NCBI GenBank assembly: GCA_037447655.1
Contig: JBBHKE010002302.1
Coordinates: forward strand, 35,779-99,778
Reading direction: 5' to 3'
Length of the DNA: 64,000 nucleotides
From: Zygnema cylindricum
Lineage: Eukaryota; Streptophyta; Zygnematophyceae; Zygnematales; Zygnemataceae
Position numbers and translations under genes: made by a program. The first letter of the stretch is position 1. Every line of letters begins with the position of its first letter. The notes below the pieces were generated by a model. That model did no database searches, was not told the origin of the DNA, and saw only the letters and a program-made list of their open reading frames with translations. Positions 12,684 through 60,891 of the stretch are shown here, piece after piece.

Positions 12684-12896
12684 GTAGGTGTTGAAATTAG
12701 AAGATTTATAGAGTATTTTCTATGTGTAAAAATGTTAGTATAAAAGGAAAAGAAAAGGACGGACAACCTACCTCCACCTCCTCTCTCTAGCCCCCCATAC
12801 TTATTGTAGCCACTAAAGGATAGAGAGGGTGGTTGATCCATGGCAACCTTAGTTCAACAGGCATTTATTTTCAGTAGGTTACTAAAAATATATCCG

Positions 12897-12976
12897 ACGA
12901 ACCCGGGATTTGATCCCGGTACTTGCCGATCATCAAGTTGGCCGATAGCGGTCAGCTTTATCCTATTAGACTAGGA
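12897..12976 (-). other. tRNA-like (Pol III-type) module, antisense in the E-A 5' LTR
   Basis: Read on the minus strand, a region with a GCGGTCAGC-complement arm is followed by a hairpin CCGGGATCAAATCCCGG, which resembles a tRNA T arm with its B box. A T5 run follows about 15 bases further. The same module is at the same place in the other LTRs of this clade. No complete cloverleaf was established. Confidence 0.55.
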
Positions 12977-13263
12977 TCAATGCTAAATGTTATAGTATGT
13001 GTTAGATATATATTTATTTAAGAAGGAACAAATTCATTTAACAGAAACTGTATACGTCATGCATAGATACAACTTTATAAAGTACGAAGTACGATACTAT
13101 TGCGAAACGGATACCGCGCATTTTGTTTCGACAGCGAAACAAATGTCGCACAAGTATTTATAACGGCTGAGATTGCATTTCGATTCAAATCCAACGGCGC
13201 ACATCATCGCCGAAATCTCGGAGTGGTCACTTTGGCTTTTTGTGACACGGCATAACCTAGCGC

Positions 13264-13269
13264 CACGTG
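13264..13269. promoter_or_regulatory. G-box (CACGTG) in LTR U3
   Basis: CACGTG in GCCACGTGG context, the core bound by plant bZIP and bHLH factors. Every other complete LTR of this clade keeps a CACGTG in the same part of U3: 29541, 32765, 33731, 34668, 35864, 35928, 46509 and 52128. Confidence 0.6.
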
Positions 13270-13502
13270 GAGAGATCACATTTGGTCGCGGGAATTCCAA
13301 AGAACTTACGGACGAGTAAAAGGAGGGCACTCGTCCACGTAATAGCATTGTCGTACATTTGTCGTACAAAAGGTACACCGACAATAGTACTTTGTGGTAC
13401 GATACAGCAATATAATTGGTCGGTACTTTAGTAGATAGGAATTATTAGAGGGAATCAAGACTTAGTGTTTTTGGTACAGTCACCTCTCCACTTGAGGGTT
13501 TG

Positions 13503-13510
13503 TATAAAAA
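13503..13510 (+). promoter_or_regulatory. TATA-like box of the E-A 5' LTR
   Basis: TATAAAAA after a CT-rich CACCTCTCC run. The solo LTR has TATAAAT in the matching place (29784-29790). This would put the U3/R boundary about 190 bases from the LTR end. Confidence 0.55.
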
Positions 13511-13724
13511 AGGCATATTTGCCACCCCATAACTTATCGCCTGGTTGGGCATTTTCAAAGATTATTTTTCCTATAAACTCAAGGGAGTCGAGGCTGCACA
13601 AGGGTGCACTCAGATTGTCTGCTTGTCTGCTTGGGTAGCAGTGGTTGCCATTGATAGTGGGTTAGTTAGTAACTATCTAGAGGCTTCCTATATTGTGTAG
13701 TCCAATGGAGGACACATAATTGCA

Positions 13725-13739
13725 AGTTATGGGTCCACC
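13725..13739 (+). other. E-A primer-binding site (half-tRNA initiator-Met type)
   Basis: AGTTATGGGTCCACC lies directly after the LTR. It differs at two positions from GGTTATGGGCCCACC, the complement of nucleotides 25-39 of plant initiator tRNA-Met as I recall that tRNA. It is also within the gag frame (V-M-G-P-P). Confidence 0.7.
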
Positions 13740-18012: not shown

Positions 18013-18025
18013 AAAATAAGGGGAG

Positions 18026-19060
18026 TGTTGAAATTAATAGATTTCTAGAGAATTTTCTAGGTTTTAAATATGTTAGTATAAAAGGAAAAGAAAAGGACGG
18101 ACAACTTTCCTCAACCTCCTCTCTCTAGCCCCTATACTTGTTGTAATCACTGAAGGATAGAGAGGGTGGTTGATCCATGGCTGCCTTAGTTCAACAGGCA
18201 GTTATTTTTAGTAGGTTACTAAAAATATATCTGAAGGACCCGAGATTTGATCTGGTACTTGCCGATCGTCAAGTTGGCCGATAGCGGTCAACTTTATCCT
18301 ATAAGACTAGGATCAATGCTAAATGCTATAGCATGTGTCAGATATATATTAATTTAAGAAGGAACAAATTCATTTAACTGAAACTGTATACGGCATACGT
18401 AGATACAGTTTTATAAAGTACGAAGTACGATACTATTGCGAAACGGATACCGCGCATTTTGTTTCGACAGCGAAACAAATGTCGCGCAAGTATTTATAAC
18501 GGCTGAGATTGCATTTCGATTCAAATCCAACGGCGCACATCATCGTCGAAATCTCGGAGTGGTCACTTTGGCTTTTTGTGACATGGTATGACCTAGCGCC
18601 ATATGGAGAGATCACATTTGGTCGCGGGAATTCCAAAGAACCTACAGACGAGTAAAAAAAGGGCACGTGTCCACGTAATAGCCTTGTCGTACATTTGTCG
18701 TACAAAAGGTACACCGACAGTAGTACTTTCTGTTACGATATAGCAATATAATTGGTCCGTACTTTAGTAGCTAGGAGTTATTAGAGGGAATCAGGACTTA
18801 CTGTTTTTGGTACAGTCACCTCTCCCCTTGAGGGTTTGTATTAAATAGGCATATTTGCCACCCCATAACTTATCGCCTGGTTGGGCGTTTTCAGATATTC
18901 TTTTTCCTACGGACTCAAGGGAGTCCACGCTGCACAAGGGTGCAGTTAGATTGTTTGCTTGTCTGATTGAGTAGCAGTGGTTGCCATTGAAAATGGGTTA
19001 GTTAGTAATTATTTAGAGGCTTCTTGTATTCTGTAGTCTAATGGAGGACACATAATTGTA
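18026..19060 (+). repeat. E-A 3' LTR
   Basis: Starts TGTTGAAATTAATAG after the purine tract and ends ATTGTA, where the usual terminal CA has become TA. It carries the same antisense tRNA-like module (about 18240-18310). Its TATA box has decayed to TTAAATA, and its G-box has decayed to CATATG. Confidence 0.9.
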
Positions 19061-19065
19061 GAAGG

Positions 19066-20464: not shown

Positions 20465-20469
20465 TGAAT

Positions 20470-22270: not shown

Positions 22271-23035
22271 AGGTTGTTGTCCCATCCATCTCTGAAATTC
22301 CCTGTAACACATGCACTTTTATATGACGGACATACCTTGAAGGTATGTCCCAAATCATTACAATAAAAGCAATTCTTTTGCCGATCTCCAAACTCGTTAT
22401 TTTTTTTTAATTTTCTGAAACTGAGACTTAAATTCCTATATATTCCTCTTACTTAATAAAACCTTTCTATTAGCCTCTTCATCTAGAACAGCACGTCTTG
22501 CTACAATTAAGCTCTAATCCATTTTATCAATTAAATTCAGTCGATCTAAAGCACTCTTATATTCTTTAGGTAGACTTCTCATTAATAATATAGCTTGTTG
22601 GTTATCTGTAAAGTTTCCTCCTGCCAAATCATTTTCTGCAAATAATACTTGTAAGTCAATACAGTGTTTCTCCATACTACCTCCTACATACTTGAATTCA
22701 ACTATTTCGGTAACATTGCTAAGCTAATGATATAAAGAATTATTTGCATACATACATTCTAAGCACTTCTATAATTCAGATGCTTTTTTAAAACTTAAGT
22801 ATGACATTACCAAATCCTCAGTCAATGAGTTCTTGATAACCCTTAGACACTCATGATTTCTCCTTTTTCATCCATTTGATGTTTCGGCCTAGGTACCGTC
22901 CACCACATCCATTAGCTCCATCATCTCGAAGTAGCTCTCGAGTGCACACTTCCAGTAGTGATATTTTGATACATCAAATATAGGTAGACATGGGTGTGGG
23001 CCCATAACCTGTTGTCCATAGCCTATTTCAGCCAT
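22271..23035 (-). pseudogene. E-B gag (broken)
   Basis: The start codon at 23035-23033 lies inside the LTR and reads MAEIGYGQQVMGPH across the PBS. Then follow PIFDVSKYHYWKCALESYFEMM (UBN2-type Gag start), TDNQQAILLMRSLPKEYKSAL, and a CCHC knuckle CFYCNDLGHTFKVC at 22371-22330. Several in-frame stops and frame changes interrupt it, for example after VVDGT. It would encode the particle-forming Gag. Confidence 0.8.
22995..23009 (-). other. E-B primer-binding site (half-tRNA type)
   Basis: On the minus strand GGTTATGGGCCCACA follows the LTR's terminal CA directly. Fourteen of 15 positions match the complement of initiator tRNA-Met nucleotides 25-39. Confidence 0.75.
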
Positions 23036-23717
23036 GGATTACTCACGGAAACACCCACAGACTACCTCAAACATAGCTGTGTTTCAGACAGCACAAATTA
23101 CTCCACAATAAACAGAATCACTTCAAACTGCAACAATATGCAGTATACCATATACATTGTAAACTCCCAAAGTAAGAGCCAAATCCACTAAGGCATCTAA
23201 AAGATATAAGCTCCAGAGTTTCCCAAAAACAATTGACAGCTTAACAAAATAACCACTTAGACTGCTCACCGAATTTTATAGACATACTGAAATACAATGA
23301 AACTTCACACACATATAGATTTTATATCGTAGAATAACTCCACAAAGTTTGATATGAAATCACTAAACATAGTGATCACACCAACAGGTCAAATATGCAG
23401 AAAACAGTTTGCCATTGCTTTGATTAACTTGACTGCGATACATAAAATAATCTAAGTCCTGCAAGTTATACTCAGACTACTGAATGTACGGAGGCATACT
23501 AGCCGTACTGTATCTACTCTAATAAACTAATTAGTCAAAAGGACAAACCTATCTACTCTAATAAACTAATTAGTCAAAAGGACAAACCTATGTTTTATAG
23601 AATATTTACATCGCACTCTTAGTATGTCAGAAACCAAGCTACCGCTAAGCAACTACTAAGTTACCACTACCGTACAATCATCATTACTCGAAACCTATCC
23701 TATTCATATTATCCGCA
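23010..23717 (-). repeat. E-B 5' LTR (outer end lost)
   Basis: Matches 20470-21127, with an internal direct duplication of about 40 bp near 23510-23590 that is absent from the 3' copy. Similarity stops at 23717, where GC-richer repeat DNA begins. Confidence 0.8.
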
Positions 23718-23759
23718 ACTGAGCTAGCTGTGCTGGCTGCGCTTGTCCGTACGGATCAT

Positions 23760-25228: not shown

Positions 25229-25236
25229 TAACGGGT

Positions 25237-26119: not shown

Positions 26120-26127
26120 TAACAGGT

Positions 26128-32272: not shown

Positions 32273-32325
32273 ATCAAAAACGTCAATGTGATCGCCCCAC
32301 CTTTGACGAATTAACTCCGGGAGAC

Positions 32326-33149: not shown

Positions 33150-34204
33150 TTTAGAAATTAATGGTTATTTTTAGTATTTTCTAGGTCTAAAATAAAATGC
33201 AAAAAAAAAGGCGAGGCAATCTGCCTCTTACTCCTCTCTTCAGCCCCCACACTTGTCGCAGTCACTAAAGGCTGAAGAGGAAGCTAGAGCCATGGCTGCC
33301 TATGCTGCTTAGAGATAGAGAGACAGGTGGTAGATTTTGGTAGATTTACCAAAACTTACTTGACGGACCTAGGATTTGATATTGGTACCTACCGTCCGTC
33401 TAGTCTAGTTGTAGCCAGTAGCTTTATCCTATTAGTCTAGTATCGGTGGTGATACATACTAGGTTTGACATTTATTTCAATTATTATACGTACGCAAGTT
33501 CGTTTTACGGCGCAACCATATTTTTGAGACATAGACACAGTTTTGTATAGTACGGCGTACGTTACTTCACGAAATGAATATTGCGCATTTGTTGCGATCG
33601 CAGAACAAATACTATGCAATTAATTTTGATGACTAGAATTAAATGTCGATCTAGATGGAACGGCCGTGATAGATGCCGTGATTGCGGAATTGACGCTTTG
33701 GCTGTTTTCGGTCATCGCCACTTCAAATGACACGTGGCAAAATCACATTGGTCTGCGTCTTCTCCGGAGAATACGGGAACAAATCCGGATATCGTAGACA
33801 TTGACATTTTGGCCATGCCGTACAATGGCCGTACATAAAGTACATCGGCACCTGTACTTTTATGCACGATACAGTAATTTGATTGGTCTGTGCTCTAGTA
33901 GTATAAGGTTTAGAGAGGGACTTATGACTTAGAAAATTTGGTAGGTAGACCCCTCTCTCCCAGAGAGCTCCTGTACAAAAGGTCAACTTTGACCTTTCAT
34001 AACTTACTACTCAGGGGAGCAAATACAAAGATTCTTTATGCTATAGACTCAAGAGAGACTTATCTTCACAAGGGTGAAGTTGGTTAGAGTTTTTATCTAG
34101 TACGGTGGTAGTTATTCTTGTGGAAACAAAAAGTGGTCAAGGTTATCCTAGGGGCTTTGAGTGAGCTGCATACTCTCAGGGCCAATGGAGGTCTTAGAGT
34201 TTGA
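33150..34204 (+). repeat. E-E 5' LTR
   Basis: Begins TTTAGAAATTAATGG (TG changed to TT) and ends GAGTTTGA (CA changed to GA). It contains the antisense tRNA-like module near 33370-33450, a G-box at 33731-33736, and the ATGGAGGTCT gag start 19 bases before its end. Confidence 0.88.
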
Positions 34205-34210
34205 AGTTAT

Positions 34211-35207: not shown

Positions 35208-35232
35208 CTCCCCTTGTTTTCTAGTCTAATTA

Positions 35233-36521: not shown

Positions 36522-36529
36522 CTCCCGTT

Positions 36530-38690
36530 ATTTTCTAATCAATCTTTAATTTCAAACCACACTTCTCCTTGCTGAAAATTAGCTTAAGGGAAGGCACAGG
36601 TTTGGTTATCATATCTGCTACCATCTCACTATCTGGTCGGTACTCTAAACTGATTATTTTGTTTTCTACTTTCTCTCTAACAAAGTTGAGTCAAATGTCC
36701 ATGTGTTTGGCTTTAAAATGATGTTTAGGATTGGCAGAAATAGCGTTTGCTGCCTCATTATCACAAAAGTTTTTTGCACACCACTCTTAAGGTGACCAAG
36801 CTCACCAAGCAAAGACTTGACCCACATCAATTCTTTTACAGCAGAGCAAGAGGCCATATACTCAGCCTCCATGGTGGACTGAGCAATAACTTTTTGTTGT
36901 TTGCTACTCCAAAGCAAGCCCCATCACCCACATATAATACATACCCGGAAGTGCATCTCCTCATCGGAGCATCACCATAACTAGCATCACTCCAAAAAGT
37001 GATATCAGTATTCTCCCCACCGAAATGCAACCATAGATCCTTAGTTCCTATCAAATATCTAAGGACTCTCTTAGCTGCCTCCCAATCCCTCTTAGTGGGA
37101 GCATTTAGACTTCTACTCAGCACTCCTATAGCTGCAGCTAAATTTGGCCGAGTACAATTCATAAAATAGATTAGACTTCCCACTACTTGCCTGTAAGGAA
37201 TAGTTTGCATGAACTTCTGATCTTCAAAAGATAATTTCTCGTCTAAGACTATGACTCCTTCTTCCTCACTCCCCTCACTTCCTTTCTTCAACTCCATTGG
37301 AGTTGTACAACTATTAGCTTTATCCATCTGAAATTTTTCAACCACGTTCCCTATTGCTTACTTTTGAGTCAATCTTATAATCTTTTTATTTCGGTCTCTT
37401 TCTACTTGAATTCCCAAAATATATTTTGCTTCTCCCATATCTTTCATTTTAAATCTCCCCTTAAGATCGGTTTTCAGTTTATTAATTTTTTCCATTGATT
37501 TACTTAATACAAGCAAATCATCAACATAAATTGCAATAAATATAAAACCTTCCTCATCTTTGAAAACATAGATTGAGTGATCTGACAGATCCGGATATAT
37601 CCCAGACCGGTAAGAAACTCATCAAGCTTCTTATTCCACTGTTGAGGCGCTTGTTTCAAACCTTAAAGAGATTTAATCAGCCGGCATACCTTACTCTCCT
37701 CTCCTTCCTCCACAAACCCTTCGGGTTGTCGCATGAAGATCTCCTCTTCCAATTCTCCATGCAAAAAGGTTGTCTTAATGTCCATCTGGTGCACTTCCAT
37801 GACTTCCGCTGCTGTCCGGTTGAGAAGTATGCGGACCGAGGGAAATCTGACGACAAGGGCAAAGGTTTCCTTGTAGTCAATTCTCTCCTTAGGTGTAAAT
37901 CCCTTTACCACTAATCGGGCCTTGTAGCACTCGATTGTGTTATGTGGGTTCATTTTTAATTTGAAAACCCACTTACAACCGATTGGTTTTCGGTTAGGTG
38001 GACAATCCACCACCTCCCAAGTATCGGCTGCGATAATTGAGGCCATCTCCTCATTAATGGCTGTCTTCCACTGGTTTCTTTCTGGACAAGTCATCGCCTC
38101 TCCATAAGATTGAGGTTCATCTTGATGAGTAGTTTTGTTACCTTGTTATTAACTTGTTTTCTTGCAATTTTTTGCTAATTCTCCTTCCCCCGTCAAAATG
38201 TAAGGCCGAAATAGATGGTTTCGTGGATTCTTTCGAACAATTTTGGCTTCTCCCCTATCCCTTGATTCCGAATCAATTTCCACCACGTCTTCCACTTCGG
38301 GTAGAGTTGTCACTGAAGTTTCCACAGCCGAGTCCTTTTCGGTCTGATTTGTACCTGCGAGAATGTTATCTTCTCTAAAACTTGGATAGTTAGAAAGCTC
38401 AAAGTCACTGGATTTTCTGACTCAAATCTGATTTTTATTGACTTTTTATACTTGAAGGGATCCACAGACTTTCCTTCATCCATAACTACTAGATGCTTTA
38501 CTAAGATTATATCTTCCCTTTTTAGATCATAAACTCTATATCCTTTAACATCCTCACCATATCCTAATAAGTATCCCGATTTTCCTTTAAAATCTAGCTT
38601 CCAATTAAACCGATTTGTATCTAGACAGGATACTTGACTGCCGTAAACCTTTAAGTGAGATATGTTTGGTTTCCGGCTTGTCTATCTCTC
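36530..38690 (-). pseudogene. E-G reverse transcriptase and RNase H (broken)
   Basis: RT from 38094: PIGCKWVFKLKMNPHNTIE, ARLVVKGFTPKERIDYKETFA, HQMDIKTTFLHGELEEEIFMRQPEGF. Then YVDDLLVLSKS at about 37530. Frame 37345-36836 has CTTPMELKK, SLIYFMNCTRP, ITFWSDASYGDAPMRRCTSGYVLY. A frameshift near 36900 passes to WSSKQQKVIAQSTMEAEYMA, and a second lies near 36775 (after SGVQK). The last part contains PNTWTF-like decay of the RNase H end. Stops at about 37360 and 37665 also break it. Confidence 0.9.
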
Positions 38691-39958
38691 ATAAGTTGTT
38701 TGATCTTTTATAGCTGAAGTAAGAACTCTATTTTTGAGGTAATTAGCACAGTTCATTGCTTCTCCCAAAACCTATTTCCTATCTTTTTATCTGACAACAT
38801 ACTTCTAGCACTATCACTTAGTCTTCTATTTAACCTTTTAGCTACCCCATTCTGTTGCGGGTTTTCTGGAACTGTCTTTTGGTGTTGGACTCCATCTTCC
38901 CTCAGAAAATCCTCAAACTGGTTAGAAGTATACTCCCCACCATTGTCACTCCTTACTCCCTTGATTGGAGTTTCATGGAGTTTTTCACTCCATGCTTTAT
39001 ATTGTTTAAAACAATTCTGAGCTTTTGACTTGTTTTTCAAAAAATACACCTGGGAATACCGAGACCAATCATCAGTGATAGTCATCATAAATCTCTTCCC
39101 CCCCGTGGAGGGCACTTTAGCCGGTCCCCAAATATCTGTGTGTACTAGATCTAGAAATTTTTCTCCCTTATTGGTGGTTGTTATAGGAAAGGGTAATCTA
39201 TGTGTTTTACCTTGAGCACATCCACTACAATCACTTATATTATCACTCTCACTGAAATTAATCCCTTCCGCCACTCCCATCTTTTTCATCTCTCTTAACT
39301 TATCTAGATTCACATGCCCAAGCCTCTTATGCCACATCATAATATCATTAACACCAGCATAATAAAGTTTATTCGTTTCATTACTTAAAATCAGCCTAAA
39401 TATCCCATGGCTACCTTTCTCAGCAATCAAATAGACATCCTCCTCAAAACTAGCAGTAAAGACTCCTTCCCTAGTGCTAGTAAAAAAACCCTTATCATCT
39501 AATACAGACGTAGAGATGAGGTTTTTGTTCAGCTTCGGAATAAACAATACATCCGAGAATGTTACTATGGATGTCTTTTTTTCTAGTAACACTTTCAGAT
39601 CTACCTATCCTACAAGAGTAGTGGTGACTATCCTCCCATCCCCGTACTCTATCTCTACGGTGGGAATCTTTTTTATCTTAGTGAACAGGTGCCTATCTTT
39701 ACACATGTGCATGGAGGCACATGAATCTACAATCCAACTTGCTTCACCTTTTAATCCACCGTGAGCACATTTCTGCCTTCGTGGAATTTCGACCTCGTTT
39801 TTCGCCTTTAACTCCTCATCTAAAAGTAGCTCATCGTCATCGTCCTCGGATTCCGCCTCATATACCTGTGTCACAAGGGCCTTTTTCTTTCCTCTCGGGG
39901 TACCACCTGTCTGCCCCTCCTTTAATCGAAGCTCGGTTAGCTTAGTGCACTCTGCCAT
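38691..39958 (-). pseudogene. E-G protease and integrase (largely open, inactivated)
   Basis: Frame 39958-39605 gives the Gag-Pol linker and protease with WIVDSCASMHM, where the catalytic D-S-G has become D-S-C. After a stop, frame 39592-38753 (279 codons) holds the GAG-pre-integrase HHCC (HKRLGH ... CSGCAQGK). It continues with the integrase core, whose D, D and E are visible as HTDIWG, RSDNGGEY and QQNGVAKRLNR. It ends early in NRFWEKQ where A-E-A-M-N is expected, through a frameshift near 38755. The integrase C-terminus (PNISHLKV) is at about 38660. Confidence 0.9.
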
Positions 39959-40865
39959 ATAGTGCCCTGGTTTCTTACAAAAATGACATTATCCTTTTGG
40001 AGCCCTTGGTTCGAACTCGTCGGTCTAATTTTTATGCTCCCTTCCCCCATAGTTTCCGACCGGTTTCGGAGAATTATTGTTCCTCCAATCGGTCACAGCT
40101 GCGAAGGCTTGCCCACTTTTTCCTCCCCTTCGGATCTTAATCGTATTCTCCCGAACTAGAATCATCCCTACCATTGAGTTCCATATCCACCTTGAGTCCG
40201 ACAATTCCTTCACACGGTTGACTATGTTCTTGAACTCATCGGGTAACTTCATCACTAATTAGTTAACCTATTCTTTTTTCACTAAAATCTTTTCCCGCAC
40301 TCTTTAGCTCCATGAAGAGTGTAGCAAGCTCATTGCAAAAATCTAACATCTTCCCCCCTTTGTAGACATACTCTTTAACTTTCTGATCAACCAACTGTTG
40401 TTGCTGAATCGTACCACTTCGGTACATCTCTATGAGAGCCATCCAAAGATCAGATGCCCTTTATACTTGCAAATGAGGATATGCAAGTCCTTGAGTGAAA
40501 TGGAGTAGGATGAAGTGCTTTGCCGCCATATTGTTGAAGTCTCCGGTTTCAGTATCATTCTCGTCGTTCCTCTGAATAGGTGACATGAAAGCCGAACCAG
40601 TTGCTATTTGTGTGGTCGCTCCTTCTCCTTTCCTTCATCCACCACCTCTCCTTATTTTGTTTCCTCTGTTGAAGGTGGATCCTCTTTCCTGGTGAATCTG
40701 CTTCCTCCAAACGCTGGAGGGATTATAAGACTTGATGGACGCCCCAACCGTCCACTCACTATCCCCCAAAACCTTTTTACGCATAGAGCTCTTATCATCA
40801 TGCTTTCCAAGTATATGAAGCCAGTTCCATTAAAGATTGGTACCGTAGAGGGTGGGCCCTTAACC
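39959..40865 (-). pseudogene. E-G gag (broken) and PBS
   Basis: The PBS GGTTAAGGGCCCACC (40865-40851) has one mismatch to the half-tRNA complement and is translated in frame with an ATGGAGGTC-type start lost from this LTR copy. Gag then continues through VPIFNGTGFIYLESMM. The frame is lost several times; 40255-40025 is open (MMKLPDEFKNIVNRVKEL, IRRGGK), followed by a knuckle with its second cysteine lost (about 39975). Confidence 0.85.
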
Positions 40866-41944
40866 TGAAACTCTAAGACCTCGATAAATCCTCAGAATGG
40901 ACAGCTTCCAAGAAGCCTCTAGGATAACCCTGACCCCTTTGTGTTTCAGCAAGAACAACTGCCACCCTAGCAGACAATAACTCTGACCACTGTCAGCCTT
41001 GTAAAGGCAAGACTCATCTGAGTCGATAGCAAAAAGAGTCTCTGAATTTTCTCCCCTAAGCTATAAGTTATGGAGGGTCAAAGTTGACCTTATGTACACA
41101 AGCTCTATGGGAGAGAGGATCCTATCTCCTAATTTTTCTAAGTCCTATCTCTCTCACATACTCTATCTAGTGATGTAGGAAGCCAATCAAATTACACTTC
41201 CGTACACAAAAGTACAGCTACCGGTGTACTTTCTGTACGGACACTGTACGACATGGCCTAAATGTCGACACGTGGTATATTCGGATTCGCTCCCTTAATC
41301 CTCGGAGATGCCGCGATCCAATGTTATTCCGCCACGTGTCATCCGATGTGGGGATGACCGAAAACCGCCGAAATCCTCTTCCGCGATCTCGGCGTTAATT
41401 CCGGCCGTCCGATTAAATTCACATTTAATCGTAGCCGTAATAAATACATGCGCAGTATTCGTTTCGCTAAAGAAATAAATGCGCGGTATTCGTTTCTTAT
41501 CCGTTCCGTAATCCGTACTTTTACATTACTCGATATTAGTGGATTTATGTCTCGTGTAAAACTGTTCAGTTAAATGAACTATCCTACGTATTAATGTTTG
41601 ACTTATTATCAAACCCTATAGTACGTAACATTATATCTAGACTTAACGGTTAAGGCTACTTGCTACTGGCTATTTACCATTCGGCTGGTACCAGGATCAA
41701 ATCCTGGGGTAATCACATATTCTTTTAGTAAATAAACCCCTAACGTTAAATAAACTAATATATATATTTCCCGTAAACCTCTGGATAGCCTAGGAAGCGA
41801 TGGCTCTAGCTTCCTCTCAAACTTCTCAGTGATTGCGACAAGTTTGAGAGTTGGAGAGAGAAGTTAGAGGTAGACTGCCTCGGCTTCTTTCTATATTTCT
41901 ATTTAGATCTAGAAAATACTTTAAACAGACTATTAATTTCTACA
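40866..41944 (-). repeat. E-G 5' LTR
   Basis: On the plus strand begins TGAAACTCTAAGACC and ends AATTTCTACA. The tRNA-like module is at about 41640-41715 (B-box-like 41694-41704). An extra AATAAACCCCTAACGTTA-like piece near 41740 distinguishes it from the 3' copy. Confidence 0.9.
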
Positions 41945-43830
41945 CAAAACACTTCATGCACTCCCTTCTTCATATACCCCAATTCTTGCAATAAAGACTT
42001 GACCCACATCAGCTCTTTCATAGTAGAAGATGAGGCCATGTACTTAGCCTCCATAGTGGACTGAGCAACCATCTTTTGTTGCTTGCTACTCCAACAACAA
42101 GCACCTTCCCCCACATATAACACATACCCAGAAGTGCATCTTCTCATAGGTGCATCCCCATAACTGGCATCACTCCAAGAAGTGATGTCAGTGTGCTCCC
42201 CTCCCTATTGCAACCATAAATCCGTAGTTCCCACAAGGTATTTCATAACTTTCGTGGCTGCCTCCTTATCTCTCTTCCTATGATCATTAAGACTCCTACT
42301 GAGGACTCCAACTGCTGCTGCTATGTCCGGTCTGGTACAATTCATAAAGTAGATTAAACTTCCTAGAACTTGTCTGTAAGGATTTAAGTTCATAAATTGT
42401 CTTTCTTCTGGTCTCATTTGATCATATAAGATTATCGCTCCTCTTGCTACACTCCTATCATTTACTTTCTTCAAGTCCATGGGAGTGGTATTAGTGTTTG
42501 CCTTTTCCATCTGGAATTTCTCAAGCATATTTCCTATAGCTTCTTTCTGAGTAAGTCTGATTATTCTCTTCCCTCTATCTCTTTCCATTTGAATCCCCAA
42601 GAAATATTTAGCTTCCCGTTAATCTTTCATGTCAAATCTAAATCTGAGATATTTCTTTAACTTATTGATCTTTTCCATAGACTTACTTAACACTAGCGAA
42701 TCATCCACATAAACTGCAATTAAAATCACACCATTCTCATCCTCAAACATATAAATAGAATGGTCATAACTGATATGAATATATCCCTGACCGGTGAGAA
42801 ACTCATCTTATTTCTTGGTCCATTGTCTGGGAGCCTGCTTCAGTCCATATAGGGACTTTATGAGTTTCCAGACTTTGCTCTCTTCTCCTTCCTCCATAAA
42901 TCCCTCTAGTTTTCGCATGAAGATTTCTTCCTCTAGTTCACCATTGAGGACAGGGGTCTTGATATCCATCTGGTGTATTTCTATGTCTTCCGCAGCTACT
43001 ACACTAAGGAGAATCGTTACAGATGGGAACCGAACCACCGAAGCAAAGGTCTCCTCATAATCTATCCCCTCTTTCTGGGTGAACCCCTTTGCTACCAACT
43101 GAGCCTTATATCTCTCAATGGTATTATCTGGGTTCACTTTTAATTTAAATACCCATTTGCATCCGATAGGTTTTATGTCTGGAGGACAGTCCACCAGCTC
43201 CTAAGTATTAGCTTCCATGATGGAAACCATCTCATCATTTATGACTCTTACCGATGGCTCTTTCTCCGGACTGTCCATTACCTCCGAGTATGACTAAGGC
43301 TCATCTGGGTGAGATAGCTTCGTTACTTTATGAGCAACTTGTTTTTCTTGTAGTCTTTTGCTGCTCCTCTGTCCTCTCTCAAAGTTCGAAGTTGGAATGG
43401 AGGGAAGTCTCGGGTTCCCCCTTACTGTCTCATCGGCTCCCTTATCTATGGAAGCCAGTTTTGGCTCCTCTTCCTCTCTCTCCTCAGAGTGTGTAGAAAT
43501 GTGAGGAGATTCCGGTATATCTCCCCCATCGTGGATCTCCCTTGAATCTGCAATCATGTTTTCACTTGTGTCTCTTCAGTGAAGATCTAAGTTTCTACTC
43601 ACTCTCCGACTCAAAATTGATTCTGATTTCCTTAGTGTATTTAAAGGGATCAAATGACTTTGCTTCATCCATGACAACTATATGTTTTACCTGTATGATA
43701 TCGTGTTTAGCCAAGTCATAGACTCTATATCCCTTGACATCCTCATCATATCCCACAAATATCCTGATTTCCCATTAGCATCTAGTTTCCAATTTTTCTT
43801 ACATGTGTCAAGACTGTAAACTTGACTACC
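41945..43830 (-). pseudogene. E-F reverse transcriptase and RNase H N-terminal part (broken)
   Basis: Frame 43194-42808: [79 protein letters not shown]. Then the YVDD box as YVDDSLV (about 42700). Frame 42600-42205 has MEKANTNTTPMDLKK and SLIYFMNCTRPDIAAAVG. RNase H begins SYGDAPMRRCTSGYVLYVGEGACCWSSKQQ at about 42165 and is cut at 41945 by E-G. Confidence 0.9.
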
Positions 43831-43839
43831 GAATACTTT

Positions 43840-46050: not shown

Positions 46051-47048
46051 TGCAATTTTGTGTCCCCCATTAGATCAATGAATTCACGAAGCCTCTACAT
46101 AGTTTTTGGGTAGCCCTCTTTCAATTTGGATCACTGCTAATAAAGCAAACAAATAGACAATCAGACTGCACCCTTTTGCATTCTGGACTCCCCTGAGTTC
46201 ACTGCAAAACGAATCACTAAAAATGCCCAATCAGGCAATTAATTATTAAGTGGCAAAGATGCCAATATTTATACAAGCTTGTTGGGAGAGAGGCGGCTAC
46301 CTTCTCAATCCTCTGAGTCCTAAACCCCTCTCACAACCCCTATCTACTGATGTACAAACCAATCAAAAGACTATATAGTACAGAAAGGTACTACGACAGA
46401 TGTACTTTCTGTACGGCTGGTGTACGACAAGGTCATGGAGGGGACGTCTGTCTCTTTCAGACTTGTTCTTTTGCTCCCCGAGATTCCCGCTTCCCAATGA
46501 TATCTTGCCACGTGTCGACAGTTTATGTCACATCTAAAACCGCCAAGACGGCCATTCTGGGATCTAAACGATGATGCAGGCCTTCGTATCCTAACCGACT
46601 TTTAATGTTTGCCGTCCAAAATAACAAATGTCTAGTATATTTGTTTCGTCAGCACTAAATCCCAACTAGTTCATATGTCCTTAATTTGTTATTCCGTTAA
46701 TCCGATTAATGATGTAGCTAATGTTTAAATGGCTATCAAACCTTATGTATCCTAAAGGACTACTATGACAGACCGGTAAGAGCTGATGGCTACGCCTCGC
46801 TCTGCCGGTCAGAGGTTCGAGTCCTACTGGACTCAACTTTTTTGTTAAGAGTGACTTAGGTCACTCTTTAGTCCTGCCTATAGAGTTGAGGGAACCATGG
46901 CTCCACCACCCTCTCCCTCCTTCAGTGACTACAACAAGTATAGGTGCTACAGAGAGAAGGTGGAGGCAGGCTGCTTTTGCTATTCTTTTAGCTATTTTAA
47001 CTAATTAAGGCCTAGAAAATACCTCCAATAAATCTAATGATTTCAACA
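46051..47048 (-). repeat. E-F 5' LTR
   Basis: On the minus strand begins TGTTGAAATCATTAG and ends AAATTGCA. Contains G-box 46509-46514 and the gag ATG at 46074-46072. The plus-strand tRNA-like module is at about 46750-46835. Confidence 0.9.
46750..46835 (+). other. tRNA-like Pol III-type module, antisense in the E-F 5' LTR
   Basis: GACAGACCGGTAAGAGC resembles an A box/D arm. GGTTCGAGTCC (46814-46824) is an exact B box. A T6 run follows at about 46837. Spacing between the boxes (about 45 bases) is in the tRNA range. The cloverleaf is imperfect, so it is a tRNA-derived module, not a tRNA gene. Confidence 0.65.
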
Positions 47049-47995
47049 GTTATGAGCCCACCCTTTAGGGTACCCATATTTAATCGAGTAGGCTTCATAT
47101 ATTTGGAAAGTATGATGACAGGGGCTCTTTGCGAAAAGAGGTTTTGGGGGATAGTAAGCGGACGAGTGAGGCGTCCATCCAGTTTAGCCATTCCTATAGG
47201 GTTTCGGAGAAGCAGATTTATTAGAAAAGCAAATCTAGCTCCAGCGGAGGATTCGGAGGACGGGGAGAGCATTTTAATGGAAAAAATGAAAGTCAAGGAG
47301 ACAGTTACACCGATTGCAACACCTATCGCAACCGCTTCAGCGTCTATATCACCTTTTCCGAAGAATAAAGAGAATGATGTTGAAACTTGGGACTAAAACA
47401 ACATGGCGGTAGAACACGTCATTCTTTGTCATCTTACTCAAGGACTTGCATCTCCTCATTTGCCGGTGGAAAGGGCATCCGATTTGTTGATTTCCCTCTT
47501 AAAGATGTACCGAAATGGTACTATTCAGCAACAACAATAGGCTGATCAAAAGATAGATCTATATGTATACAAAGGGGGAAAAATGTTAGGCTTTAGTAAT
47601 GAGCTTGCCACCCTTTTCATGGAACTAGAGAGTGCCGGTCAAGTAGACACATAAAAGATGAAAGTGAACTGTCTGCTCATGAAGTTACCTGATGACAATA
47701 AAAATATAGTCAACTGGGTGTAAGATTTGCCGAATTATAGGTGGATCTTGAATTCTGTGGTAGGGATGATTCTTGTCCGAGAAAATACAATTGAGATCCA
47801 AAGGGGAGGGAAGAGTGGACAATCTTTGGCAATAGGAACTGATTGGAGGAGCAAGGATCTTAGAGAATTAGCAAAAAACTATGAAAGAGGAGGACAAAAA
47901 ACTCAGTCCAATGAATCCGGACCGAGGGTCTCCAAAAGGGTGTGTCACTTTTGCAAGAAATCAGACACTATATGGCAAAGTGTACTAAGCTAACC
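47049..47995 (+). pseudogene. E-E gag (broken), PBS remainder
   Basis: Starts with the second copy of GTTAT and the rest of the PBS (GAGCCCACC), then PPFRVPIFNRVGFIYLESMMTGALCEKRFWG. A TAA at 47394 ends the first frame. It continues with QGLASPHL-like and KYKGGKMLGFSNELATLF-like text with several stops. Frame 47727-47993 has the IQRGGK block and knuckle start CHFCKK, which is then frameshifted (SDTIWQSVLS). Confidence 0.85.
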
Positions 47996-51397: not shown

Positions 51398-51410
51398 AAA
51401 ATAAAGGGAG

Positions 51411-52601: not shown

Positions 52602-52694
52602 TTATTCTTGTTGAAACACAAAGGGGTCAGGGTTATCCTAGTAGCTTTATGTGAGCTGCCTTCTCTCAGGACTTATGAAGATCTCAGAGTTGCA
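52602..52694 (+). repeat. E-D 5' LTR, right part
   Basis: Continues from 33149 after E-E: TTATTCTTGTTGAAACAC ... CTCAGAGTTGCA. It contains the gag start ATGAAGATCTCAGAG, which opens into the PBS in frame. Confidence 0.85.
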
Positions 52695-54162
52695 AGTTAT
52701 ATGCCCACCCTCTAGGGTGCCCATCTTTAATGGAACTGGCTTTATTTACTAGGAAAGTATGATGAGAGGAACTCTATGTGAGAAACAGTTTTGGGGAATA
52801 GTGAGTGGACGGGTGAGGCGTCCATCCACTCTTGGGATCCCTCTACTTTACAAGAAGTAGATTCACTAGAGATGGTGATCCATCTCCAACGGAGGAGACA
52901 AAGGAAGGGAAGGTGGTGGACAAAGGAAAGGAGAAAGAGAGAGTCACACCAATAGCAACCGGTTCGGCATTCAAGTCACCTATTCCGAAGAACGAGGAGA
53001 ATGATACCGATACCTAAGACTAAAACAATATGGCGACAAAGCACTTCATCCTCCGCCATCTTACTCAAAGGCTTGCATCTCCTCATTTGCAGGTAGAGAG
53101 GGCATCGGATCTTTGAGTGGCTCTCATAGAGATGTACCGAAGTGGTACGATTCACCAACAGCAGTTGGCCGATCAGAATATTAACGCATATGTATACAAA
53201 GAGGGGAAAATGTTGGATTTTTGTAATGAGCTTGCAACACTTTTCATGGCGCTAAAGAGTGCTGGACACGTTTAAATTGAAAAGATGAAGGTTAACTGCT
53301 TGGTCATGAAGTTACCATATGAGTTCAAGAACATAGTCAACCGTGTGCGGGACTTGCTAAACTCAAGGTGAATATGGAATTTAGTGGTAGGGATGATTCT
53401 CGTTCGGGAGAACACGATTGAGATCAGAAAGGGGAGGAAAGAGTGGGCAAGCCTAGGCACCTAGGACTGATTGTAGGAACAACGATTCTAGGAAATCGGT
53501 CGGAAATTATGGATGAGGGGGGCAGAAAAATCAGACCGTGGAGTTTCTACCAAGGGCTCCCAAGGGTTTGTGTCATTTTTGAAAGAAACTAGGGCACTAT
53601 ATGGCGTAGTGCACTAAGCTTACCGAACTTCGGTTAAATGAGGGGCAGATCGGTGGATCTCCAAGAGGAAAGAAAAAGGCTCTTGTGACTCAAGTACACA
53701 AGGAGGAATGCGAAGACGAGGACAATGAGCTCTTGCTGGATGAGGAGTTGGACGCAGAGACAGAGTTCAAAATTCCTCGAAAGTAAAAATGTGCTTTTGG
53801 AGGTTTAAAAGGTGAATGAGGTTGGATTGTGGATTCTGATGCCTCCATGCACATGTGTAAGGATAAACACCTGTTCACTAAGAAGAGAAAGATTCCCACC
53901 GTAGAGATAGAGTATCGGGATGGGAGGGTAGTCACTACTACTATGGTAGGATCGGTAGATCTGAAAGTTTTAGTGGAGGGAAAGAAATCCATAGTGACAT
54001 TCTATGATGTGTTGTTTATTCAAGAGTTAAACAAAAACCTCATCTTAACGTGTGTGTAAGATGATAAGGGTTTTGAGACTAGCACTAGGAAGGGAACCTT
54101 TACTGCTAGCTTTCAGGAAGTTTATTTCACTGTTGAAAAAGGTAGCCAAGGGATGTTTATGT
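52695..54162 (+). pseudogene. E-D gag and protease (truncated interior)
   Basis: The PBS is AGTTATATGCCCACC (three mismatches to the exact site). Gag reads PPSRVPIFNGTGFIY, then stops. Frames at 52832-53017 and later hold the S/T-rich linker, KMLDFCNELATLFM, VNRVRDL, and an IRKG.. block. The knuckle at about 53570 has lost its second cysteine. Protease reads VDSDASMHMCKDKHLFTKKRKIPTVE at 53829 onward (DSG changed to DSD). Similarity to the other elements stops at about 54160, within GSQGMF. Integrase, RT and the 3' LTR are missing. Confidence 0.87.
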
Positions 54163-54289
54163 TGTTTTTGGAAAGCTTTAAGTCTCACCAAATTAATAGG
54201 ACGGCGAAAAAATAGATCTATAGGGACACGCGTCGTCACATGAAGCATAGTGCAGGTTTTTGAATGGTACCGACAACGCAGCTGCGACG
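54163..54289. other. Unassigned joint between E-D and E-H, LTR-like start
   Basis: Begins TGTTGTTTTTGGAAAGC, close to the first 20 bases of the E-H LTR and of the solo LTR at 57936. It does not match them further on. It may be a fragment of a third related LTR. Confidence 0.4.
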
Positions 54290-55105
54290 TGTTGGTTTTG
54301 GAAACCTTTAATCCTCTCTATATCTCATGTGTGAGAAAAAGAGTCTAAACTTAGCCAGTTTTTGCGTATAGACTGAGTTGAGGTAGAAAATATGTGGTGT
54401 GGTATGTAACTCCAAAGGGAGTTAAAAGATTTGGTACACTCTATGTACACTTGTCGGTCCGTGGGTAAGTCAAGCTTGGTTGAGTTGGTTAACAAAGTAC
54501 ATATTTACTTCAGGGACCAGATATACACGTGGAGGTTCATCTACGGTGATGAGGAATACGCGGACGGAGGACGGTGTTTGCCGTCATTTGTGGAAGAGAA
54601 ATATTGACCGAACCGTCATTTAAGTGGACTAATTTTGACTGCATATTTTAGCAGCGGTTAGGGTTAAGGATTGATGTAAATACTTGTACGGTAGATGGCG
54701 GGGTTTAGTTTGATTAATGTTTAGTGTACCGACACACCACGGTTAATGTGGTACGGTTTAGATCAGCTGTAGGTTCACTTTGTATATGTAGAACTTAGAA
54801 TATTTTGGAGTTAGGAATTCAGTGAATGGAAAACTGCGAAGTAGTTTTGGTGTACTTTTGAATTGCAAGATCATTGTGATCTTAAGGCAGAACTCTGTGA
54901 AATTCTGCATGTGTTTTCTTTGTTATACTTTTTATATTGTGGCAAATTTCTAGACCTAGTGTGTGTCTGGTTTGCTTGGGGATTCATTGTGAAGTCACCC
55001 TTTTTGTGGTTTCTGTGAGAGTTTCCTCTTTTGTAATCTGAATATTATGGCAACTGCTAGTGCCTCTTCTTCCTCCTCTGGGTCACCAGTTGCCTCAAAT
55101 CAACA
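54290..55105 (+). repeat. E-H 5' LTR
   Basis: Begins TGTTGGTTTTGGAAACC and ends AAATCAACA. Its last 59 bases are coding: the gag start codon is at 55047-55049. It has no clear tRNA-like module and no CACGTG like the other clade. Confidence 0.9.
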
Positions 55106-55858
55106 AGTCACGGGCCCACCCTCATGGATCCCAGTGTTTAATGGCCAAAAATATTTATATTGGGTGGATTTGACTAAGTCTTACCTTAAGCAAGTGAGAT
55201 TGTATGATGTGATTTCCGGTGTTCTTTCGGATACGGATTCTGATTTTGAAAAGAAAAATGAGGATGCATTGCATGTTCTTAAACTACTCTTGTTCGAAGA
55301 TCTGAACATGACATATATCAATATCTCTAAAGCATGTGATATATGGAAGGCTTTGCGGGAGTCATATGTCCTAGCTAGTGAGCAGAATGAGGTTATAACT
55401 GCTGGGAAAATTTGGGATTATAAGTATTCCGGGGGTGATAAGAACTCCTATTGTAATGGCTCGAAGCTTTTGTTGTCGGAAAATATATGTTTCGGGGGGA
55501 ATTTTCCTCCCTATCATCAAGCTATGATTTTAATGAGAGGGCTTCATGCTGAATATAAAGGAGCCGCGGAACAATTGAAAAGGTTGGAGAAGGCTAAATA
55601 GAATATAACTCTAGCTGAAGCTTACATTTTAGAGGAAGAGGCAACTCAGATAGCATTGAATGGTGGAAATCAGCGGTAGCGTACAATGCTCAGACATATA
55701 GGCCGGCTAGATTTTCTGGATATAGGAACTTCACCCCTAATTCTAATTATAGGCAATATGATACGTGTGTCTATTGCTTCGGTCAAGGTCATGTTTTTCG
55801 GCTGTGCCCAACATTTATAATAGCGTGTGAAACAGGAATTTATCGTGCGGGATGGAAG
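55047..55858 (+). pseudogene. E-H gag, start codon inside the LTR (broken)
   Basis: Frame 55047-55601 starts in the LTR with MATASASSSSSGSPVASNQQ and continues through the PBS as VTGPPSWIPVFNGQKYLYW, a Gag N-terminus. Then come NMTYINISKACDIWKALRESYV and FPPYHQAMILMRGLHAEYKGA (UBN2-type). A TAG at 55599 ends it. The frame continues as NITLAEAYILEEEATQ, with a knuckle CVYCFGQGHVFRLC at about 55769-55810. The ATG context is kept in the 3' LTR too (60834). Confidence 0.9.
55106..55120 (+). other. E-H primer-binding site (diverged half-tRNA type)
   Basis: AGTCACGGGCCCACC, three mismatches to the exact half-tRNA complement, directly after the LTR CA and within the open gag frame. Confidence 0.6.
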
Positions 55859-57092: not shown

Positions 57093-57936
57093 TATTGTTC
57101 TGAGACAACTGCTGGCACTGAAGATGAAGAAGATGCAGCAGTAGTCATCGTAGAACAAATCAAAAGAGGAAGCTTCCACAAATACCGATGGTTGAACAGC
57201 AACTTTGACAGACTATAACTTTCACAAATATTTTTTAATCGTTCTGACAATTTACCACAGTGTAGATAACATACAAAAGAACACACACACAAAATTTCAA
57301 TGAATTCCGCTCACAGATATGTGAGATATGCAGAAATGAAATTACATAAAACTGAGTGTACAGTTTTCATATCAATTGTTCCTAATAAAGCAAATACACT
57401 AAGTCGTACTTCTATACACCGAAACTACACTAAGCTGTACGGAGGCATTCCAGCCGTACATATAACTTTCTAACACAACAAATACTGTGAGTATACCTGT
57501 GTACTGAAGGTATGTCATAAACCACATTCTCAACACTAAACAACTAATTCACTACAGACAAAATTGTATTCTACCAAATATTTACACCAAAGTTCAGATA
57601 AACGTAAAGTGATAGTGATCTAGTCACGCCTCGTCAGCATTTGTTGGCGGCGGCTGTCAGCCGTCCGATTAGAGGATTTGGCATCGTAGAACTAACTTCA
57701 CGAAGTCCCGTGGTCCTGCCGAATTTTTGTACGTCCACGGAGGACATACTCAAGAATTTCTCTCAAATGACGACGCGTGTCCCAAGTGTGAATGAACCGT
57801 GAACTCCCAACTTCACTGTCACACTAATTTTGGTAACCACTGAACCGAACTCAACCAAAAATAGCTTAAGCCCTAAATAGCTCTCTCTCCCTCATTGCTA
57901 AGGCATAGGGAGGACTAAAGCTTTCTAAAAACAACA
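57093..57936 (-). mobile_element. Solo LTR (minus) inserted in E-H integrase
   Basis: On the minus strand begins TGTTGTTTTTAGAAAGC and ends CAGAACAATA (CA changed to TA). A perfect AAGAC duplication (57088-57092 and 57937-57941) flanks it. Removal restores KGKTPYEMW. Near its 3' end the frame MTTAASSSSSVPAVVSEQ resembles the LTR-coded Gag start of E-H, so it is a sister lineage with the same gag-in-LTR design. Confidence 0.9.
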
Positions 57937-58310
57937 AAGACACCTTATGAAATGTGGACCGGAAAGAAACCCAATGTAAGTCACTTCCGGGTTTTTAGTA
58001 ATAAATGTTTTATTTTCGATAATCTTCCTATTTCTAAGCTTCATCCAAAATCTGTCCCGAGAATTTTTATAGGTTATGATGATGAGTCAGTAGGCTATAG
58101 AGTTTACAACCCAGATAGGAAAACTCTTCAGGTTGCTAGGAATATTCAGGTTAAGGAAGAAAGTCAATCGGTTGATGTTTTTGGCATGACAGATTTTGAG
58201 AAAAATGCCAAAAATCAAGAATATGTAATTTTTGAAAATGTTCCTCTTTCCTCTTTCACAAGTTCTTCCTCTATTCCTACTCCGGTCATTCCGGTTGTTC
58301 AACCTGTACA
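57937..58310 (+). pseudogene. E-H integrase C-terminal part
   Basis: TPYEMWTGKKPNVSHFRVFSNKCF and FIGYDDESVGYRVYNPDRKTL are the conserved copia integrase C-terminus. It is followed by a serine/threonine-rich linker that passes into the polyproline tract. Confidence 0.88.
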
Positions 58311-58355
58311 GCAAGCTCCTCCTCCTCCTCCTCCTCCTCCTCCTCCTCCTCCTCG
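58311..58355. repeat. (TCC)n microsatellite coding polyproline
   Basis: About 14 TCC units in the E-H integrase-RT linker, read as 13 prolines in the pol frame and as polyglutamate or polyglycine on the minus strand. Opposite-strand open frames here are artefacts. Confidence 0.9.
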
Positions 58356-60048
58356 GCGGCAGCGTACGGATCCAACAGTTCCAGCCTCAGATTTTCCGGG
58401 GGGAAGAAGGCGAAGTAGTAGGCTGCGAGGTGAACCGGCGGAACATGCCCTATTTTTTGCAACCACAATGGAGCCAATCACCATACAGCAAGCCTTTTCA
58501 GCCCCGGAAAAGGATCAATGGATCTCCGCGGCAAATGATGAAATGCGATCGAAAATGGAGGCTCAAACTTGGAAGCTTGTGGAGCTTCCGCCGGATCGAA
58601 AAACCATCGGTTGTTAGTGGGTTTTTAAAGTTAAGCTAAATCCAGATAATTCTATTGAAAGATATAAGGCTAGGCTTGTTGCAAAGGGTTATAGTCAAAA
58701 GGAGGGAATTGACTATGAAGAGACTTTCTCTCCGGTTGTCCAGTTTCCAACTGTTAGAATTTTTTTATCTTTAGCAGCCATTGAGGATATGGAACTCCAT
58801 CAAAAGGATGTTAAGACAACTTTCTCACATGGAGATTTAGAGGAAGTGATTTATATGAGGCAGCCTGAAATGTATGCAGAGACCGAAAAATAAAATCTGG
58901 TCTGTAAACTGTTGAAATCTTTGTACGGTCTGAAGCAGGCTCCCATTAGTGGAATCTGAAACTAGATGAGTTTCTAACTGGTCTTGGTTTTGTGAGTATT
59001 AGTTCAGATCACTCAGTCTATGTTATAGAAGGGGAAGATCGGATTATTTACATTGCTCTGTATGTAGATGATTTGCTGATACTGAGTAAGTCATTAAATG
59101 AGATTAAGAAAATAAAGGCACCCTTGAATTCAGGATTTGAGACGAAAGATTTAGGAGAGGCAAAGTATATTCTCGGGATTTAGGTAGAAAGGGATATAGA
59201 TAGGAGAATTATCTATCTAACAAAACGCGAAGCGATTGGGAATATGCTTGAGAAGTTTGGCATGTCAAAGGCAAAGGGAAGTGCCACTCCCATGGAATTC
59301 AAGCAAAAGGTGGAAGGCATGGAGACTGAGGGAGAAGTCATTTTTGATGACACCTTCGAATTAGGGGAGGCAGATTTTATGGCTGCCATTCCATATCGTC
59401 AAATTGTTAGCAGCCTAATCTACTTTATGAACTGCACACGCCTGGACATCACGGCTACAGTTGGTGCTCTAAGCCGCTGTTTGCAAAATCCGAGGAGATC
59501 GGATAGGGAGGCAGCAAAAAGGGTCCTTCGATATCTTGCAGGGACACGAAATCTACGACTCGCTCTCAGTGGAGAAGAGGTCAAGATTCAAACTTGGAGC
59601 GATGCAAGTTATGGAGACATGCGAAGTCGGCGCTCCACCACCGAATTCATTCTAAAGATCGGAAGTGGAACATTTTGCTGGAGCAACAAGCTTCAGAAAG
59701 TCAGAGCTCAGTCTACAATGGAGGCTGAATACATGGCAGCGAGCTCAGCCATCAAGGAGTTACTTTAGGTAAAATCTCTCTTTCAAGAACTTCACTTTAT
59801 GAAATCTGGACCTCAAATAGTGTGTTGTGACAACCACGCTGCTATAGCGATTACATCTAACCCAAGTCATCACTTCAAAAGCAAGCACATTGATATAAAG
59901 TTGCATTTTGTAAGAGAGAACGTGGTGAACAGAAATTTAAAACTCAGTTATTTGCCGGATTAGATGATGGTAGCAGATATGATGACTAAGCCTTTACTTG
60001 CACCTAAGTTGAAGTTTTGTAGAGAGGCATGTGCACTGAGTGGTTGAG
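58356..60048 (+). pseudogene. E-H reverse transcriptase and RNase H (broken)
   Basis: The frame to 58617 ends KTIGC* just before [14 protein letters not shown], so one stop splits the RT entry. Then [67 protein letters not shown] (about 59061), LGEAKYILGI*. Next is frame 59244-59768 with SATPMEFKQK, SLIYFMNCTRLD, TWSDASYGD, and WSNKLQKVRAQSTMEAEYMAASSA. The end of RNase H (CDNHAAIAITSNPSHHFKSKHIDIK ... MVADMMTKPL) runs to a stop at 60048. Few stops, so less decayed than E-D or E-E. Confidence 0.9.
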
Positions 60049-60070
60049 AGTGTGTAAAGGTTTAAAGGAG

Positions 60071-60891
60071 TGTTGGTTTTGGAAAACCTTTAGTCCTCTC
60101 TATATCTCGTGTGTGAGAAAGAGAGTCTAGACTTAGCCAGTTTTTTGTGTATAGACTCAGTTGACGTAGACAAGATGTAGTGTGGTATGTAACTCCAAAG
60201 GGAGTTCACGGATTTGGTACACTCTATTTACACGTGTTGGTCCGTGGGGAAGTGAAGCTTGGTTGAGTTGGTTGACAAAGTACATATTTACTTGAGGGAC
60301 CAAATTTACACGTGGAGGTTCATCTTCGGTGATGAATGAATACGCAGACGGCGGACGGAGTTTGCTGTCATTTTTGGAAGAGAAATATTGACCGAACCGT
60401 CATTTCAGTAGACTAACTTTGACTGCGTATTTTAGCAGCGGCTAGGGTTAAGGATTGATGTAAATACTTGTATGGTAGATTGTGGGGTTTAGTTTGATTA
60501 ATGTTTAGTATAGCGACACACCACGGTTAATGTGGTACGGTTTAAATCAGCTGTAGGTTCACTTTGTATATGTAGGACTTAGAATATTTTGGAGTTAGGA
60601 ATTCAGTGAATGGAAAACTGCGAAGCATTTTTTTGTGTCCTTTTGAATTGCAAGATCATTCTGATCTTTTGGTAGAACCCTGTGAAATTCTGCATGAAGT
60701 TTCTTTGTTATACTTTGTATTTTGTGGCAAATTTGCAAGACTTAGTGTGTGTCTGGTTTGCTTGGGGCTTCATTGTGAAGTCGGTCTTTTTGTGGTTTCC
60801 GTGAGAGTTTCATCTTTTATAATCTCAATATTATGGCAACTGCTGGTGCCTTTTCTTCCTCCTCTGGGTCACCGGTTGCCTTAAATCAACG
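60071..60891 (+). repeat. E-H 3' LTR
   Basis: Preceded by the purine tract AAAGGTTTAAAGGAG. Begins TGTTGGTTTTGGAAAACC and ends AAATCAACG (CA changed to CG). It keeps the ATGGCAACTGC gag start at 60834, which here opens toward flanking DNA. Confidence 0.88.

Follow-up and report, generated by a model that had tools for sequence, protein, structure and literature searches.

The DNA analysed here (the window) is a stretch of 64,000 nucleotides (nt) on contig JBBHKE010002302.1 of the 352.8-Mb assembly of Zygnema cylindricum (Zygnematophyceae), and nested copia elements are present in it. The elements are Ty1/copia retrotransposons with a copia-type reverse transcriptase (RT) and Gag. Judged from the sequences, Gag appears to begin in the long terminal repeat (LTR) in thousands of copies of the genome, with a frame that crosses the primer-binding site (PBS). 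We consider it probable that these elements use two in-frame AUGs, the first in the LTR tip and the second in the PBS, with Gag read from either, the PBS translated and reverse transcription primed by half of a tRNA-Met.

The LTRs end in CA, and the sequence that follows, GGTTATGGGCCCACC, matches exactly, as its reverse complement, a segment of the host tRNA-Met anticodon arm. The PBS, 15 nt in length, is exactly complementary to host tRNA-Met genes and pairs with this internal part of the tRNA, not with the tRNA 3' end. Because it pairs with the CAU anticodon it must contain an AUG, and this AUG lies in the Gag frame. A 26-nt tRNA pattern gave five exact matches in the genome and 11 at up to three mismatches; ARAGORN reported tRNA-Met in all five loci submitted, one being a one-mismatch site. 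An earlier tRNA pattern, CTGGGCCCATAACCC, had no match in the genome. The primer would be a cleaved 5' tRNA half of about 39 nt. A 5' tRNA half of about this length is the primer of Drosophila copia.

The frequency of the LTR ATG was determined genome-wide, with reversed patterns as the chance control. The exact PBS, CAGGTTATGGGCCCA, was found at 6,237 sites versus nine for the reversed pattern, and the PBS at up to one mismatch at 10,539 sites versus 20. The in-frame ATG at −21 is beyond chance: an ATG exactly at this position and in the Gag frame was present at 4,633 of the 6,237 exact PBS sites (74%), and the reversed pattern gave five. All 100 sites listed in the search at up to one mismatch were fetched, and 82 of these PBS-ascertained copies had an open in-frame LTR ATG, the first open one lying at −21 in 68, at −27 in 13 and at −45 in one. 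It was absent in the other 18, including L065 and the minor pairs L096/L097 and L035/L125, so the feature does not extend to every copia lineage, contrary to the claim of a first-pass annotation of this DNA. To avoid selection by the PBS, 20 loci were picked by their RT; 19 of them had a junction, and 16 of the 19 junctions were open. In the three failures (L016, L018 and L029) the lost feature is still present in the 3' LTR, so the changes most simply arose after insertion. Stop-freeness of the seven LTR codons was considered as evidence and rejected, since inspection by eye showed both alternative frames of the two main tips to be open as well. Locus L027, one of the 20, in which no PBS was found by the patterns used, carries a direct duplication of 3.3 kb (94.6% identity); its copies end at an LTR tip.

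The leaders upstream of the LTR ATG are depleted of ATGs. Expected counts were taken from a first-order Markov model; relatedness among the copies means that the sums cannot be treated as independent trials. Between −379 and −22 in the 19 RT-ascertained loci 14 ATGs were observed and 65 expected, and the next 321 nt upstream held 125 versus 131 expected. The leaders of the families with seven LTR codons (7-codon families) held 40 versus 166 expected (99 copies). Over shorter stretches, 11 were observed and 42 expected in the 9-codon family (15 copies), and 14 versus 86 in the E-H lineage described below (40 copies). The start contexts differ between the two AUGs. The base at −3 of the LTR ATG is C in 77 of 93 copies of the 7-codon set and T in 14 of 14 of the 9-codon family, and the PBS AUG has G at both −3 and +4 in all 98 copies of the 7-codon set that have it. 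The first-pass annotation had missed this second in-frame AUG and its strong context; the LTR AUG thus need not be the sole start. With GTT counted as codon 1, the main family has no further in-frame ATG beyond that of the PBS until codon 22, so the start would be at the LTR AUG, at the PBS AUG or at an unusual start codon.

Selection was examined on a 100-copy tree of the 7-codon families, in which changes on internal branches (source lineages) were compared with those on terminal branches (private changes). Trees were built in FastTree and midpoint-rooted, and changes were assigned by Fitch parsimony with recombination between LTRs ignored. Of 122 rows, the codon test set omitted L049 (a 1-nt tip deletion) and 21 from other lineages; the site-by-site count kept L049. 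Gag is selected as a protein directly after the PBS. Gag codons 6–14 had 20 synonymous and 12 nonsynonymous changes on internal branches versus 24 and 86 on terminal branches (Fisher p = 5e-5), and internal changes in Gag by codon position showed a third-position excess (99 versus 33 and 28). The residues coded by the LTR are not so selected: internal changes in LTR codons 2–7 comprised three synonymous, 20 nonsynonymous, three stop gains and two stop losses, and terminal changes 11 synonymous, 35 nonsynonymous and five stops, plus five ATG losses. The protein-coding constraint on the LTR tip proposed by the first-pass annotation was therefore not borne out, whereas its proposal that the PBS is translated very probably holds, given the purifying selection on the Gag codons right after it. 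The LTR ATGG itself had no internal and eight terminal changes in the 7-codon families, which supports the view that the LTR ATG behaves like a retained start codon. LTR position −9 is more changeable than its neighbours (eight internal and 16 terminal changes). A change of G to T there gives a stop, which is seen in three families: MEDTxLQ, METTxFQ and MEVSxFQ (L018).

The sampled copies of the E-H lineage, with 20 LTR codons, nearly all keep the LTR ATG and mostly lack the PBS AUG. In the window, the 5' LTR of element E-H lies at 54290..55105 (plus strand), with the ATG at 55047 and a frame that continues into VTGPP; its PBS at 55106–55120 reads AGTCACGGGCCCACC, without AUG, and the tip of its 3' LTR (60070..60890, plus strand) has the ATG at about 60833 with the frame open. 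The sample consisted of the 40 best of 1,299 candidates including the window copy, to which the 39 fetched copies (L135–L173) were aligned. An LTR ATG was present in 39 of the 40, in every case with A at −3 and G at +4, and the frame was open from the LTR ATG through the PBS in 31 of 40. The PBS triplet was ATG in five copies, ACG in 34 and AGG in one; the query carried ACG, and the ACG share applies to the sampled subfamily only. The ACG mismatches the host initiator tRNA; a search of the host for a tRNA cognate to the ACG PBS gave one match with one mismatch, which was not established as a tRNA.

On this anatomy we infer the start sites, leaky scanning and tRNA cleavage as follows. The 5' half of the initiator tRNA-Met, cut in the anticodon stem, would act as primer. 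Ribosomes would scan the AUG-poor leader and meet the LTR AUG, within the last 20–60 nt of the LTR, and then the PBS AUG. Starting at the LTR AUG would add to Gag an unconstrained N-terminal tail of 7–20 residues, a free arm. In the 7- and 9-codon families, where position −3 of the LTR AUG is mostly a pyrimidine, some ribosomes would leak through to the PBS AUG with its G at −3 and +4. From either AUG the PBS would be read as Gag codons, wholly or from its own AUG onwards. Lineages could drop one of the two starts, as the sampled E-H copies may have done in mostly losing the PBS AUG, their LTR AUG being in a good context. A more specific version is held tentatively, at somewhat less than even probability: that the PBS AUG is the Gag start codon decoded by the initiator tRNA and later the primer site for the same anticodon, that the LTR AUG is a second start and that E-H escaped the overlap. 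If this were true, the starts of translation and of reverse transcription would compete directly on one PBS site. If the PBS AUG works as a start, a single site would serve one and the same tRNA in translation and in primer binding, and the order in which genomic RNA is translated and reverse-transcribed could be tested directly. An annotation that starts Gag after the PBS would misplace the N-terminus in thousands of copies, should Gag indeed begin in the LTR tip or the PBS.

Several observations weigh against the two-AUG account. No amino-acid constraint was detected on the LTR-coded residues of the 7-codon set, in which internal changes look no better than terminal decay. Amino-acid conservation of the E-H tip, evaluated with L169 dropped for a gap, gave no significant result either; the power was low, and the E-H Gag codons were not significant. 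For the retention of ATGG relative to neighbouring LTR sites, the ratio of internal to terminal changes gives p = 0.018 (ATG by itself, 0.08), and p = 3e-5 is reached only under one shared rate for all LTR sites. Eight of the 39 E-H copies with an LTR ATG are interrupted before the PBS, seven by stops (in two pairs the two copies have the same stop) and one by a frameshift. In the MEPIEFQ family an extra in-frame ATG at codon 10 offers a further possible start. Five of 12 copies examined have a TATA-like motif around −222 to −232, and none was found within 700 nt in four copies of the youngest family.

To these is added a stop before the PBS, MEDT*LQ, which appears to be a spread allele. The first-pass annotation had treated the stop in element E-A as decay, but it is not private to that copy. 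The 5' LTR of E-A (12688..13724, plus strand) has its ATG at 13705 and the frame MEDT*LQ into a PBS that begins at 13725 (GTT at 13726), and the tip of the 3' LTR (18025..19060, plus strand) has the same ATG and the same TAA at LTR codon 5. Genome-wide, 702 MEDTxLQ junctions matched a 32-base pattern, and codon 5 in the first 100 listed was GAA in 67, TAA in 17, AAA in 14 and CAA in two; the excess of G to T over both G to A and G to C favours a spread allele over plain decay. Fifteen of the 17 stop-allele copies were fetched anew and two were already in the set (L009 and L134). In the stop-allele tree, purposely enriched by adding 15 stop-allele and five GAA copies to 20, the stop-allele copies are scattered among copies without the stop. 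Nine of the 15 fetched (L175, L176, L178, L179, L180, L181, L182, L185 and L186) lack stops over the first 67 codons of Gag and retain the PBS AUG. Three of them, L175, L176 and L186, are near-identical to one another. L175 seems to carry a frameshift late in the 67-codon stretch; it is on the same contig as L176, at a distance of 5.3 kb, and the two may represent a single tandem event. A stop at the same codon in another family (L010, L012 and L064) was placed by parsimony as a gain on the branch to a whole eight-copy group, with a later reversal. Under the two-AUG reading, the stop allele would depend on the PBS AUG or on helper copies.

Helper copies would make the stop-allele elements non-autonomous, moved by the Gag of other copies. 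This explanation concerns those copies only and is compatible with the use of two AUGs. The scatter of the allele among stop-free copies would fit it, as would barley BARE2, discussed below; yet nine of the 15 fetched copies keep the PBS AUG and lack a stop in 67 Gag codons, albeit with the likely late frameshift in L175, and we regard helper dependence as somewhat unlikely. The same copies, among them the young L176 and L186, would also be expected if Gag started only at the PBS AUG and the LTR ATG were an in-frame upstream AUG, either tolerated or retained for some other purpose such as a short regulatory open reading frame. The invariant G at −3 and +4 of the PBS AUG, the prevailing C at −3 of the LTR AUG and the unconstrained LTR residues point the same way. 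The E-H sample does not: the PBS AUG is missing in 35 of its 40 copies and the LTR ATG is present in 39. Nor would a PBS-only start account for leaders that are ATG-poor up to the LTR ATG, which is itself retained, and we judge it unlikely.

The opposite extreme, the view of the first-pass annotation that translation starts at the LTR AUG and that protein-coding constraint acts on the LTR tip of all lineages, gains from the conserved position and frame, from the open junctions in both the PBS-ascertained and the RT-ascertained copies and from the post-insertion appearance of the three RT-set failures. It is made very unlikely by the lack of synonymous bias in the LTR residues, the spread stop allele and the minor groups without an LTR ATG. 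Nucleotide conservation without a codon signal would also be expected if the ATG block were retained because of a role in the DNA or RNA (integrase end, packaging or structure) and its frame were coincidental. Between ATGGAG and the conserved LTR end, however, lie 12 sites that changed 27 times on internal branches, so that plain end recognition would not explain it, and the ATG depletion is limited to the leader. The distances of 21, 27 and 60 are all multiples of three, a weak point since the ATGs were found by frame. Conservation for such a function is very unlikely. Reading of Gag from either of two in-frame AUGs is the account that we favour.

Assignment to copia was based on domain searches. 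The 150 RVT_2 matches (copia-type RT) scored in the genome search, of 22,405 candidates, were over the cut-off. Retrotran_gag_2 was over the cut-off in L025, below it in E-H and L045 and not listed for L047. The rve and GAG-pre-integrase domains were located in a window copy at 38753–39592 (minus strand), and the RT domain in other copies. In three of the 20 RT-chosen loci (L017, L025 and L028) a single frame of 4,362 nt connects the LTR tip with the end of pol. When homologues were sought with the Gag N-terminus, no match was scored among 1,429 candidates.

The remaining LTR tips of the window, which were those named in the first-pass annotation and those obtained by self-comparison, agree with its claim of an in-frame ATG leading to the PBS in all cases but one; E-H agrees as well. 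The 5' LTR of E-B (23010..23721, minus strand) has its ATG at 23035 and nine codons, with the PBS from 23009 downwards; the frame is open across the junction MAEIGYGQQ/VMGPH (slash, end of the LTR). The 5' LTR of E-F (46051..47048, minus strand) has its ATG at 46070 and the PBS from 46050 downwards, again with an open junction, MGDTKLQ/VMGPP. E-F sits inside the PBS of E-E, with a 5-bp target duplication, GTTAT, at 34206–34210 and 47049–47053; in E-E these are the first bases past the LTR-coded codons. The E-E tip (34185..34210, plus strand) comprises MEVLEFE and the first 5 nt of the PBS, and the PBS continuation and Gag start follow beyond E-F at 47049..47085 (plus strand); the ATG and the frame toward the split PBS (MEVLEFE/V) are intact. 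A truncated element has the junction MKISELQ/VICPP at 52675..52715 (plus strand). The tip of a solo LTR (57093..57936 in the first-pass annotation, minus strand) codes MTTAASSSSSVPAVVSEQ from about 57148 and is E-H-like. The exception is E-D (element 35461–41945), whose 5' LTR (40866..41945, minus strand) has ATC instead of ATG in the tip adjoining the PBS and then runs in frame into a decayed PBS; the opposite LTR tip is altered as well. The window also contains tandem repeats, a 10-bp array and a 31-bp array (62872–63141 and 6979–7378).

Parts of this arrangement are familiar from other elements. In Ty1 the GAG AUG is located in the LTR. This location fits the 53-nt 5' untranslated region and the PBS at RNA nt 95–104, within the GAG open reading frame (PMC5454406 and PMC4974528). 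The likeness to Ty1 is a PBS inside the Gag frame, and here also a Gag start codon in the LTR, known in our case from sequence only. The Ty1 PBS pairs with the 3' end of a whole initiator tRNA and no AUG is required, whereas here it pairs with the anticodon loop and carries an in-frame AUG. Drosophila copia and yeast Ty5 are Hemivirus-type examples that use initiator tRNA. Like them, the present elements would be primed by a short tRNA segment, the PBS here matching an internal part of tRNA-Met. Hemivirus is distinguished by a short tRNA segment as primer, and LTRs are called non-coding (ICTV profile, PMC8515867). A half-tRNA-Met PBS is shared with Osser, with Bryco, whose elements are from mosses, and with part of Gymco-II (Neumann et al., 2019; PMC6317226); in the passages of that paper used here these lineages are described by PBS type, with no mention of PBS translation or of Gag starting within the LTR. 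In barley BARE2 the gag start codon is lost and the family still spreads (PMC3735527). BARE1 and BARE2 are copia elements of which one family spreads without a gag start codon, and they differ in having an untranslated region between LTR and gag. No description of half-tRNA copia elements whose Gag starts in the LTR was found in titles and abstract openings or in passages of PMC6317226, PMC3587641 and PMC7175516, which is weak evidence of absence as few subscription journals were covered. The suggestion in the first-pass annotation that the design is undescribed fails in part, Ty1 being the precedent for a PBS inside the Gag frame (PMC4974528 and PMC5454406). A translated PBS and a half-tRNA PBS are each known; their combination appears to be new.

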